Shown piece by piece: positions 9,030 to 53,064 of a stretch of 64,000 nucleotides of DNA; positions within the stretch are counted from its first letter, which is position 1; each line of letters starts with the position of its first letter. The position numbers were made by a program, and so were the translations under genes. The notes beneath the pieces were generated by a model, which saw only the letters and a program-made list of their open reading frames with translations, was not told where the DNA came from and did not search any database. The DNA comes from an uncultured Ruminococcus sp. (GTDB taxonomy: Bacteria > Bacillota > Clostridia > Oscillospirales > Ruminococcaceae), in assembly GCA_902788785.1 (NCBI GenBank), contig CADALT010000004.1, forward strand, positions 58,719 through 122,718, given 5' to 3'.

Positions 9030-9063
9030 ACAACGGAGCGCTCTTAATATGTTAGATCATAAG

Positions 9064-9134
9064 CAGGAGAGCACAGAATTGAACTGTGATCTGCGGTTTT
9101 GGGGACCGTTATTCTACCATTAAACTACACTCCT
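9064..9134 (-). tRNA. tRNA-Trp(CCA), atypical, with C33
   Basis: Folds as a 71-base cloverleaf: acceptor AGGAGTG / CTCTCCT with one U-U mismatch, D stem GTTT / GAAT, anticodon arm ACGGT-CCCCAAA-ACCGC with an A-C closing mismatch, T arm CACAG-TTCAATT-CTGTG. Anticodon CCA reads UGG. Position 33, U in nearly all elongator tRNAs, is C. The 3' CCA is not encoded. Last gene of the array. Confidence 0.75.
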
Positions 9135-9139
9135 GTATA

Positions 9140-9210
9140 TTCCCGTTGAGAGGCTCGAACTCCCATTCTCGGTGTCAAAGGCCGATGTCCTACCGTTAGA
9201 CGAAACGGAA
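9140..9210 (-). tRNA. tRNA-Gln(TTG)
   Basis: 71-base cloverleaf with acceptor TTCCGTT / AACGGGA, anticodon loop CTTTGAC (anticodon TTG, normal U33) and T loop TTCGAGC. The anticodon stem has a C-A mismatch next to the loop. The body resembles tRNA-Glu in its D arm (GTCT ... GGAC). No encoded CCA. Only 5 bases separate it from the tRNA-Trp gene. Confidence 0.8.
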
Positions 9211-9257
9211 TAATACGTTATCCTTACAGCAAAAGCATATAAGTGTCCACAGTTAAG

Positions 9258-9330
9258 TGCCTCCGACAAGGATCGAACTTGTGACGCTATGCTCTTCGGG
9301 CATACGCTCTACCAACTGAGCTACAGAGGC
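9258..9330 (-). tRNA. tRNA-Phe(GAA)-like, with C33
   Basis: 73-base cloverleaf: acceptor GCCTCTG / CGGAGGC, D arm GCTC-AGTTGGTA-GAGC, anticodon arm TATGC-CCGAAGA-GCATA, T arm ACAAG-TTCGATC-CTTGT. With five-base-pair stem geometry the anticodon is GAA, but position 33 is C and position 37 is G, unlike normal bacterial tRNA-Phe. Isotype assignment is therefore less secure than the fold. CCA not encoded. Confidence 0.65.
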
Positions 9331-9332
9331 AT

Positions 9333-9355
9333 AAACTAAACCTGCCGTTTAGTTT
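9333..9355. repeat. Inverted repeat between tRNA-Cys and tRNA-Phe
   Basis: AAACTAAAC and GTTTAGTTT separated by 5 bases fill the 27-base spacer between the two tRNA genes; likely a processing or pausing hairpin in the array transcript. Confidence 0.5.
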
Positions 9356-9357
9356 TA

Positions 9358-9428
9358 AGGCTGTGACAGGATTTGAACCTGCGGTGACGGAGTTGCAGTC
9401 CGCTGCCTTTCCGCTTGGCTACACAGCC
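9358..9428 (-). tRNA. tRNA-Cys(GCA)
   Basis: 71-base cloverleaf with perfect acceptor GGCTGTG / CACAGCC, anticodon arm GCGGA-CTGCAAC-TCCGT (anticodon GCA, normal U33), T loop TTCAAAT and discriminator U73 as expected for Cys. CCA not encoded. This is the most canonical member of the array. Confidence 0.9.
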
Positions 9429-9432
9429 GATA

Positions 9433-9503
9433 TTTCCGCTGAGAGAGTTGAACTCCCGTTTTCGGAGTCAGGATCCGATGTCCTGCCACTAGACGAAGCG
9501 GAA
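9433..9503 (-). tRNA. tRNA-Gln(CTG), with C33
   Basis: 71-base cloverleaf: acceptor TTCCGCT / AGCGGAA, anticodon arm TCGGA-TCCTGAC-TCCGA, T loop TTCAACT. Anticodon CTG reads CAG; positions 32-33 are U-C where C-U is usual, so U33 is missing. CCA not encoded. First gene of the array, 4 bases from tRNA-Cys. Confidence 0.75.
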
Positions 9504-9525: not shown

Positions 9526-9756
9526 TTATTCAACGACGAGTATCTCGTCAATGGTGACGTTAAGGATATACGCAAGTATCACCAGATTGTCGATGGACGG
9601 CATGGCGTCGCCTCGCATCCATTTGAATATGGACTGCGGTGTGTTGAAACCGCATTTATTCTGAATATCTGAGACCTTCAGACCATTCGCTTTTATCAGC
9701 GCTTTTATATTGGCACCCGTAGCTGCCATGTTGACCATAGGTATCCCCGAAGACAT
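9526..9756 (-). CDS. Small XRE-family HTH regulator
   Basis: 76-residue Cro/CI-type DNA-binding protein: the helix-turn-helix lies in VSDIQNKCGFNTPQSIFKW (about 27-45), followed by the LAYILNVTIDEILV packing helix typical of the family. The start ATG at 9756 (MSSGIPM) follows an AAGGTGG site. It ends 23 bases before the tRNA array and lies downstream of a small ORF and a hairpin terminator under one strong promoter, so read-through at that hairpin may set its level. No target is evident. Confidence 0.8.
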   Translation of the reverse strand: MSSGIPMVNMAATGANIKALIKANGLKVSDIQNKCGFNTPQSIFKWMRGDAMPSIDNLVILAYILNVTIDEILVVE

Positions 9757-9775: not shown

Positions 9776-9822
9776 AGAAATAAAAAGACCGTCTGTACGC
9801 ATTGCACTGCATACAGACGGTC
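9776..9822 (-). terminator. Strong hairpin between the 42-codon ORF and the XRE gene
   Basis: GACCGTCTGTA / TACAGACGGTC (11 perfect pairs, 14-base loop) followed on the minus strand by TTTTTATTT. It lies downstream of the small ORF and just upstream of the XRE gene, which has no other visible promoter. Confidence 0.75.
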
Positions 9823-9852: not shown

Positions 9853-9981
9853 CTATCTGCGAACCAAACGATCACCGGTGTTATCATGCAGCACAAATAA
9901 ACTCTCGTTTTGCTGGACAAAACAAAAGCCAAATGTAAAGCACCACTGGTAACCATTAAAGCTGTGTCTGATAGTGTTCAT
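9853..9981 (-). CDS. Hypothetical 42-residue protein
   Basis: A short frame beginning MNTIRHSFNGYQWCF and ending RLVRR, rich in aromatic residues with two Cys. It has a GGGTGAG ribosome binding site at suitable spacing, a near-perfect promoter 58 bases upstream and a strong terminator 31 bases downstream, which together suggest a real transcript. No family is recognised. It could also be a leader peptide or the transcript could act as a small RNA. Confidence 0.45.
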   Translation of the reverse strand: MNTIRHSFNGYQWCFTFGFCFVQQNESLFVLHDNTGDRLVRR

Positions 9982-10038: not shown

Positions 10039-10067
10039 AGTATAGCACAGTTTGTGTACGATGTCAA
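10039..10067 (-). promoter_or_regulatory. Sigma-A promoter for the 42-codon ORF and XRE gene
   Basis: On the minus strand TTGACA (10062-10067), a 17-base spacer and TATACT (10039-10044): one mismatch from consensus. Confidence 0.85.
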
Positions 10068-52404: not shown

Positions 52405-53064
52405 ATGACAGTCAGAACGATTGACGCACAGCCGCAGGAGATCAAAAAGCGCCGTGTGGCTGCCTACTGCCGTGTCAGTACCGATCAGGACGACCAGATC
52501 TGTTTCGAGAACCTGAATTTGCGTGGCGCAGCGAAGGGAGAAATTCTGGATTATATTGCGGAGAAGTATCCGCAACATCTTGACGGCTACAAGGCGATCT
52601 ACCATAATGGTGACTTGTCCTACTGGGAGCAGCTCGAAGCAGAGATTGAGACACTGTCCAAGGAATATGCCGAAAGCCGCAAGAAGATACTGGAGGACAG
52701 GCTTGATACCTATAATTCAGATCTTACAAATACTGAGCTGCTTAAAAAGAGTATTGAGGAAAATAAGAACCTCTTTAAGAATAATGCCGAAGACTCAAAA
52801 TTCTATTACAGATATGCTATACCATATGATGAGTATGGTAAACTCACAGGCGAGATACTTTCTATATCTGCCGATTCGGTAGCAAGTGAATCATCAGGCA
52901 CAAAGTTCTATATCGCACAGGCAAGCCTGTCCGAAAAATCGCTGATGGGAAAAGAAGGCGATGTAAGAGAAGTCAGAACAGGTATGCTGCTTGAAGCCAA
53001 GTCGATCTCAGGCTCTAAGCGTGTTATTACATGGCTGTTGGAGAAGCTCAATTTTATTGACTGA
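52405..53064 (+). pseudogene. Mosaic frame: serine-recombinase start fused to HlyD-type bacteriocin secretion end
   Basis: 219 codons in one frame. Residues 1-31 (KKRRVAAYCRVSTDQDDQ) are the N-terminus of a large serine recombinase. Residues about 32-95 (ILDYIAEKYPQHLDGYKAIY, SYWEQLEAEIETLSKEY) come from another, unidentified protein, possibly a radical-SAM enzyme end. From about 96 the sequence is a HlyD-family accessory protein of bacteriocin export, with the hallmark C-terminus GMLLEAKSISGSKRVITWLL and KLNFID. The frame is open but cannot encode any of the three functions intact. Confidence 0.65.

Follow-up and report, generated by a model that had tools for sequence, protein, structure and literature searches.

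Bacterial tRNA genes are, to our knowledge, usually viewed as being controlled by growth rate or the stringent response rather than by a shortage of their own products. In attenuation of the trp and his type, a leader open reading frame (ORF) containing control codons is followed directly by an antiterminator segment and then by a terminator located before the structural genes. The current study concerns a 64,000-nucleotide stretch of DNA (hereafter the window) from an uncultured Ruminococcus sp. (contig CADALT010000004.1 of assembly GCA_902788785.1), and specifically an array of five closely packed tRNA genes located downstream of a small helix-turn-helix (HTH) gene. The closest published system is the trn operon of Anabaena PCC 7120, which the accessible part of its description presents as a second tRNA set that is carried on a megaplasmid, normally silent, and induced by translation inhibitors (PMC10272220). 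Within the same portion of that report, TrcR is a ribbon-helix-helix repressor that is encoded away from the array and also represses rtcB, and its loss releases the trn operon (PMC10272220). Two further systems are relevant: the RtcR-regulated RNA-repair operon, which the available text describes as a response to damaged tRNA that includes RtcB and a sigma-54 activator with a CARF domain (PMC7790460), and phage tRNA arrays, which are described in the accessible part of one report as redundant tRNAs with anticodon-loop mutations (PMC10264068). Titles and abstract openings from the open-access literature yielded no tRNA operon or array with leader-peptide attenuation, the subscription literature being mostly outside this search. 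Here, we present evidence suggesting that the window array is a backup-tRNA operon under ribosome-mediated transcription attenuation, a reading to which we assign a probability of roughly 0.8. Related loci and genomes are cited by handles beginning with L and G, respectively.

A predicted leader and attenuator upstream of the HTH gene

Alignment of the DNA upstream of the HTH gene brought to light both a leader ORF and an intrinsic terminator, the latter of which is conserved. On the minus strand, the predicted operon is arranged in the order of promoter-like site, leader ORF, intrinsic terminator, HTH gene, and tRNAs, with the following features:

10039..10067, minus strand: promoter-like site, TTGACA-17-TATACT with TG before the -10, 11 of 12 matches
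9853..9981, minus strand: leader ORF, 42 codons plus stop, MNTIRHSFNGYQWCFTFGFCFVQQNESLFVLHDNTGDRLVRR, with the ribosome-binding-like site AAGAAAGGGTGA upstream
9910..9951, minus strand: control codons, Y Q W C F T F G F C F V Q Q
9885..9896, minus strand: antiterminator segment 2, TTGTGCTGCATG, right after the control codons and complementary to the terminator 5' arm
9802..9813, minus strand: segment 3, TATGCAGTGCAA, within the terminator 5' arm and loop, able to pair with segment 2 or with the 3' arm
9787..9822, minus strand: intrinsic terminator, 15-bp stem followed by TTTTTATTT, between the leader and the HTH gene
9526..9756, minus strand: XRE-type HTH gene, 76 aa, Pfam HTH_3, directly upstream of the tRNAs

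Within the core of the leader (YQWCFTFGFCFVQQ), 10 of the 14 residues are Gln (three), Phe (four), Cys (two), or Trp (one), and these main residues are the same amino acids served by the operon tRNAs, which are ordered Gln, Cys, Phe, Gln, and Trp. The region contains five terminator-like sites compared to a shuffle mean of 1.1, and the terminator at 9822-9787 has a z score of -5.7. Of the 65 leaders listed, 55 are preceded by a promoter-like match of 8-12 out of 12 positions, a count that carries no chance control. Similar leaders are found on pRUMAL01, the megaplasmid of R. albus 7, where a module that adds tRNA-Asp is preceded by DDYQCFFSFSFDWQDE and a Leu-Leu-Glu module by LYSESLLSLVLESEE. 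Control by a T-box riboswitch was also considered for the window and was rejected because Rfam returned no T-box match there, its sole matches at the gathering threshold being six tRNAs.

Leader composition follows the tRNA content of each module

Leaders were collected with a rule that is blind to composition, requiring a terminator just upstream of the HTH gene or tRNA and taking the longest ATG-initiated ORF that has a ribosome-binding-like site and ends shortly before this terminator. From 152 module rows, the rule returned a leader in 147, which comprise 77 distinct leaders derived mostly from Clostridia, with six originating from virus-classed records. When one representative was taken from each of 17 clusters formed at 50% identity, the mean fraction of leader residues served by a tRNA of their own module was 0.370 versus 0.274 in permuted pairings (sd 0.017), and none of 20,000 permutations was as high (p≤5e-5). 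With modules cut at the next leader and nine clusters formed at 40% identity, the corresponding values were 0.370 and 0.263, again with 0/20,000 permutations reaching the former. The match also depends upon the reading frame, as the in-frame fraction was 0.31 versus 0.16, 0.18, and 0.14 in the three other frames and was the highest of the four in 68/77 leaders.

The same trend was seen for several individual amino acids, using a threshold of at least one residue per leader for Trp, Cys, and His and at least two for all others. Trp was present in all nine leaders from modules encoding tRNA-Trp versus only 4/68 from those without it, while Gln reached its threshold in 33/33 versus 2/44. The remaining contrasts were 24/24 versus 25/53 for Cys, 28/29 versus 22/48 for Glu, 29/29 versus 33/48 for Phe, and 18/19 versus 35/58 for His. 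Several dissimilar leaders agree with their modules as well: SSYSYSYSS precedes a Tyr,Ser module, LSSSYVLYLSLLL precedes Tyr, four Leu, and two Ser tRNAs, EWQAIFQCEEYSF precedes Glu, Gln, Cys, Glu, Trp, Gln, Phe, and Tyr, and SNRIKSIRSQFCNKNWFNC precedes Phe, Ile, Lys, Lys, Trp, Gln, Cys, Asn, and Arg in the virus-classed L183. As a separate observation, the leader and terminator before this Phe-Ile-Lys-Lys-Trp-Gln-Cys-Asn-Arg module occur without an HTH gene of their own in two virus-classed contigs (L183:3586-3628 and L184:3591-3625).

Mutually exclusive pairings predicted for the leader transcript

The duplex predicted between the leader region and the terminator 5' arm averaged -18.3 kcal/mol versus -12.6 kcal/mol for codon-shuffled leaders. 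It surpassed the mean of its own 12 codon shuffles in 73/77 leaders, and its start within the leader fell at or after codon 20 in 73/77. In two alignments of hand-chosen leaders containing 19 and 23 rows, 91.2% and 94.8% of antiterminator cells were paired, respectively, compared to 12.3-62.3% and 10.9-66.7% in slid versions. The corresponding values for terminator cells were 96.2% and 99.5%, although the second alignment is too invariant to inform. At column 123 of A3, an arm-3 base is changed in three rows including that of the window, and matching changes are found in both its antiterminator and terminator partners. The complete window leader folds with a z score of -7.4 and the terminator formed, whereas leaving out the upstream part together with the bulk of the 3' arm yields the antiterminator (z -3.9, with 2/200 shuffles as good). 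At the computational level, the locus exhibits the anatomical hallmarks of trp/his-type attenuation, namely a leader ORF with a ribosome-binding-like site, matching control codons, an intrinsic terminator, and a predicted mutually exclusive antiterminator.

The array is a divergent second tRNA set

The array itself and its downstream hairpin are composed of the following features, with anticodon loops given as tRNA positions 32-38:

9433..9503, minus strand: tRNA-Gln(CTG), loop TCCTGAC, C33
9358..9428, minus strand: tRNA-Cys(GCA), loop CTGCAAC, U33
9257..9330, minus strand: tRNA-Phe(GAA), loop CCGAAGA, C33
9140..9210, minus strand: tRNA-Gln(TTG), loop CTTTGAC, U33, one unpaired stem position
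9063..9134, minus strand: tRNA-Trp(CCA), loop CCCCAAA, C33
9005..9022, minus strand: terminator-like hairpin and T run, 3' of the array

A preliminary description of this DNA had claimed five packed tRNAs, and both ARAGORN and Rfam RF00005 do recover all five on the minus strand at 9063-9503, with gaps of 4-46 bases between ARAGORN ends and scores of 49.6-63.4 bits, such that the cloverleaf folds exceed the RF00005 cut-off of 29 bits. Its observation of C33 in three of the five is likewise borne out by the loops of Trp, Phe, and Gln-CTG, which lack the canonical elongator U33 that is present in Cys and Gln-TTG, and the stem mismatches it noted in Trp and Gln-TTG correspond to two and one non-standard pairs, respectively, with none in the other three tRNAs. 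The absence of an encoded CCA was also correctly reported for all five (0/5), but is not a special feature of the array, since CCA is encoded by only 15/34 distinct non-array tRNAs and missing from the other 19.

The window assembly (2.95 Mb, 90.6% complete) contains 43 tRNA matches, and 39 distinct tRNA sequences were read from the loci around the assembly matches, with the window tRNA-Ser(GGA), which has U33, counted apart. C33 is present in 3/39, all of which are inside the array, while the 34 non-array sequences uniformly contain U33. Had the array contained the only Trp, Phe, and Gln genes of the genome, C33 could have been an ordinary trait of the lineage; however, canonical U33 copies of Trp (CTCCAAA), Phe (CTGAAAA), Gln-CTG, Gln-TTG, and Cys are all located elsewhere. 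The array tRNAs are just 61-68% identical to these counterparts and 80-94% identical to tRNAs of pRUMAL01. Given both the presence of canonical counterparts and the low identity to them, we conclude that the array is a divergent second tRNA set. Its location behind a predicted attenuator fits the earlier suggestion of a specialized stress array, and the proposed mobile origin fits as well, with close relatives on pRUMAL01 and related modules in virus-classed contigs. The leader ORF, terminator, and HTH gene do not feature in that description. The pRUMAL01 array contains 14 tRNAs versus five in the window, and in G022, a genome of the same genus, the array occupies the position that it has in pRUMAL01. 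Since the Gln-CTG, Phe, and (where present) Trp orthologues of the relatives examined contain U33, the three C33 changes probably arose on the window lineage.

Two other observations were made in the window. A perfect 9-bp hairpin is located between tRNA-Cys and tRNA-Phe (9333-9355) and is perhaps a processing signal, and an ORF at 52405-53064 has, by eye, a serine recombinase-like start followed by other sequence, making it a possible mobile-element remnant.

C33 in related arrays

Among distinct array tRNAs, C33 was found in 17/293 from host loci and 6/76 from virus records, the latter with one additional A33, versus 0/142 other host tRNAs (Fisher p 0.002 for the host contrast, with rows that are related). 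The C33 array tRNAs span ten isotypes, and 5/22 virus-record tRNAs not chained to an HTH gene have C33 as well. A Phe-C33 tRNA recurs in seven R. flavefaciens-type loci. Unpaired stem symbols averaged 1.13 in C33 array tRNAs (n=23), 1.57 in U33 array tRNAs (n=346), and 0.61 in other tRNAs. The assertion that these tRNAs are not simply decaying consequently holds insofar as C33 goes with no loss of pairing relative to U33 array tRNAs and Phe-C33 recurs in the R. flavefaciens-type loci, but less so for array tRNAs overall, which are more unpaired than other tRNAs. Judged from the sequences compared, C33 recurs both in arrays of this kind and among some tRNAs carried by viruses, and does not reflect decay. 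As a side observation, six tRNAs with C33 lie in one region of the virus-classed L264, each of another isotype (Ser, Pro, Asn, Glu, Gln, and Arg).

The number of tRNAs and their pairing nevertheless raise the possibility that the window array is what is left of a degenerating mobile array, with five of about 14 tRNAs retained and C33 resulting from drift. The reduction relative to pRUMAL01, the stem mismatches in Trp and Gln-TTG, and the excess of unpaired stem symbols in array tRNAs would all be expected of a remnant. We consider this improbable, as the promoter-like site, leader, terminator, HTH reading frame, and cloverleaves are all intact despite 6-20% tRNA divergence from pRUMAL01, the window terminator and antiterminator have matched changes in common, and Phe-C33 is found in seven other loci. 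Even further from likely is a non-ribosomal use, which the preliminary description had entertained and in which the tRNAs would supply peptide ligases or cell-wall enzymes with amino acids. tRNAs for non-ribosomal amino-acid donation are known in other bacteria, and the U-turn is weakened in three tRNAs of the array. However, the leader peptides read codons for the same amino acids, which points to translation, and inspection of the listed window ORFs by eye revealed no tRNA-dependent ligase, for which no family search was made; in the absence of any search aimed at it, no support for this use was found.

A further explanation, which is compatible with an attenuated backup-tRNA operon, is that C33 tRNAs serve as replacements resistant to anticodon nucleases, given that host or phage tRNases would cut normal tRNAs at or near U33. 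The enrichment of C33 in host and virus arrays across ten isotypes favors this explanation, and such a model has been published for phage tRNAs, according to the accessible part of the report (PMC10264068). We regard it as tentative and less likely than not, because most array tRNAs retain U33, as do the orthologues examined of the three C33 tRNAs in the window, the C33 tRNAs not chained to an HTH gene indicate that the change is not tied to it, the cutting enzyme is hypothetical here, and related sequences inflate the count. Cas13d was considered as the nuclease and then dropped; the tRNA targets of LshCas13a are Lys, Glu, Gln, and Thr, as given in the available portion of its description (PMC11042736), and their overlap with the arrays is partial, consisting of Glu and Gln only. 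Nuclease evasion is a possible purpose of C33.

Distribution of the HTH gene and its modules

A scan of genome_contigs for relatives of the HTH protein found 124, of which 80 loci were kept, some genomes giving more than one. By title, they belong to Ruminococcus species or to unclassified Oscillospiraceae, Clostridia, or Clostridiales. A tRNA was located near the HTH homologue on the same strand in 71/80, and two of the nine loci with no nearby tRNA, L106 and L139, break off no more than 30 bases from the HTH gene. Two module kinds are recurrent, one encoding Leu, Tyr, Glu, His, and Ser-GCT and the other, as in the window, encoding Gln, Cys, Phe, and Trp, sometimes with Asp. The HTH gene was present in 12/295 genomes at the order level, and the 14 loci outside the window genome had tRNAs beside it in two cases (L221 and L222), RtcB in two (L220 and L223), and neither in ten. 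At the class level, it was present in 7/391 genomes, with tRNAs at L256 and L258 and none at L257 or L259-L261. HTH genes with tRNAs also occur on virus-classed contigs, including one record of 253 kb, while many other such contigs carry the HTH gene alone. The loci compared contain 110 distinct HTH proteins; for 71 of these, a tRNA begins at most 150 bp downstream, and 38 lack any downstream tRNA. In unverified phage records, Phe, Glu, and Tyr tRNAs follow the HTH gene in L288 and none do so in L287.

PHROG matches in the L184 pieces include endonucleases, helicases, a Holliday resolvase, a phosphohydrolase, and some of unknown function, with no capsid gene in the pieces read; its classification as viral is that of IMG/VR. 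L263 and L265, which have recombinase-like genes by eye, and L273, which has a PHROG integrase, may be integrative elements. An HTH homologue with 55% identity is also found on Ligilactobacillus salivarius plasmids (L286); on pMP118, it sits between sugar transporter and chloride channel genes with no tRNA within 6 kb. Bacterial tRNA-Leu is usually a class II tRNA, unlike the tRNA-Leu of type A modules (L066:5992-6149; L069:11835-12071), which is 76-77 nt with a short variable loop.

RNA-repair genes near related modules

A full-length DRB0094-type RNA ligase gene is located downstream on the same strand in 16 of the 80 genome_contigs loci, with tRNAs in between in 14. The ligase scored 60.9 bits against PF09414 and 140.2 bits against TIGR02306, the latter just below the model cut-off of 151. 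In both L220 and L223, RtcB lies immediately before the HTH gene, and in L221, RlaP comes after the tRNAs. No RNA ligase was found in five virus records (0/5), and within the genus, 20 loci inspected for RtcB-HTH linkage (L234-L253) contained no HTH gene of the array-type motif. Separately, we observed that in R. flavefaciens-type loci the DRB0094-type ligase comes directly after the HTH gene and tRNAs (L127:4700-5746), with partial matches in L124 and L136, that L256 contains by eye a probable C-terminal part of RtcB, and that the cases in L220, L223, L256, and L221 all lie outside the genus.

Proposed mechanism and its weighing

When Gln-, Trp-, Cys-, and Phe-tRNA are ample, a ribosome would traverse the leader and mask segment 2, allowing the terminator to fold and leaving the HTH protein and tRNAs unmade. 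Upon tRNA shortage, the ribosome would halt at the control codons, segment 2 would join segment 3, and polymerase would continue into the HTH gene and tRNAs, with the read-through products restoring the missing tRNAs. The likeliest stress would be the loss of tRNA itself by cleavage or damage, because extra tRNA genes do not cure amino-acid starvation, and such a stress would fit the RNA-repair genes adjoining some relatives. The HTH protein probably exerts feedback control on the operon. C33 would be a change that arises repeatedly in backup tRNAs and is either tolerated or selected; as the least certain step, it may turn these tRNAs into poorer substrates for a hypothetical anticodon-loop nuclease.

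Leader-peptide attenuators classically sense charging, and the anatomy described here matches theirs. The operon might instead be an amino-acid-starvation attenuator that responds to the uncharged forms of the Gln, Cys, Phe, and Trp tRNAs, with its tRNAs merely raising charging capacity or the rate of translation on demand. The mixing of amino acids from several biosynthetic families within modules also counts in favor of this alternative. We nonetheless judge this unlikely, as the operons examined hold tRNAs and the HTH gene with no biosynthetic genes noticed, an additional tRNA gives no relief of an amino-acid shortage, and RNA-repair genes are nearby in some relatives.

Several points weigh against a backup-tRNA operon controlled by attenuation. 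Leader translation, antitermination, and induction are predictions, and the evidence for them is entirely computational. The region contains three promoter-like sites, which equals the shuffle mean of 3.0, with that at 10067-10039 being the best. The window leader also has Tyr and other residues with no tRNA in the operon, and the excess of third-position substitutions is modest (366 versus 227 and 272). Across the 77 leaders, Tyr, Leu, Ser, Asn, Lys, and Asp are singly not significant, and kinship among leaders, 66/77 of which fall into one cluster at 40% identity, makes the per-residue p values overstate independence. The ORF or module chosen by the blind rule is visibly wrong in at least three clusters (L118, L161, and L033), which were kept in the counts. 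Covariation is thin, each antiterminator having just four cells in which both partners are changed; the number of doubly changed pairs was reached by 70 and 90 of 500 shuffles, pair 28-119 fails in 10/19 rows, and in A4 a slide by -2 scores higher on covariation than the structure does (0.132 versus 0.096). Some duplexes are weak, such as those of the L032 Tyr-Ser module and L256. With regard to RNA repair, neither L220 nor L223 has a tRNA, the DRB0094-type ligase is absent from the window genome and present in 2/29 genomes of the genus, and RtcB and RlaP of the window genome sit on contigs other than that of the array. RtcB is also not clearly commoner in genus genomes that match the DNA of the pRUMAL01 array region (11/15, with G008 matching by a single tRNA only) than in those with no match (7/14). 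Lastly, an anticodon-loop nuclease remains hypothetical for these arrays.

A broader proposal is that of a self-titrating tRNA supply, in which sets shared by gut Clostridia, a megaplasmid, and large virus-classed elements would each lie behind an attenuator with a leader reading the shortage of its own tRNAs and, together with RNA ligases in some lineages and C33 tRNAs that outlast the nuclease, would constitute a tRNA-level immune or counter-immune system. We consider the chances of this proposal to be about even.

Comparison with known systems

If true, a leader that reads the codons of the tRNAs behind it would provide direct feedback upon tRNA supply. It would also spell out which tRNA loss each array expects, which would make the purpose of accessory tRNA arrays testable. 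The leader signature further allows such arrays to be found in phages, plasmids, and bacteria and ties them to RNA repair.

Like the Anabaena trn operon, the array is a redundant clustered tRNA operon beside a housekeeping set and is also plasmid-borne in the case of pRUMAL01. The two differ in that an HTH_3 gene heads the operon here, while the Anabaena TrcR is a distant ribbon-helix-helix protein, and in the predicted leader attenuator, none being reported for trn in the accessible part of its description (PMC10272220). With trp/his-type attenuation, the array operon shares leader control codons, an adjoining antiterminator segment, and a terminator ahead of the genes, except that it would regulate the tRNAs for the control codons themselves, for several amino acids at once, together with an HTH regulator and with no biosynthetic genes noticed. 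The RtcR operon has in common a link to damaged tRNA and RtcB, but its regulator is a sigma-54 activator with a CARF domain, and no tRNA genes are named in that operon in the available text (PMC7790460). Phage arrays similarly contain redundant tRNAs with anticodon loops altered relative to those of the host, as with C33 in three of the five tRNAs here, and related modules are found in virus-classed contigs; the modules described here, however, are mostly located on bacterial contigs and a plasmid, under a predicted attenuator.
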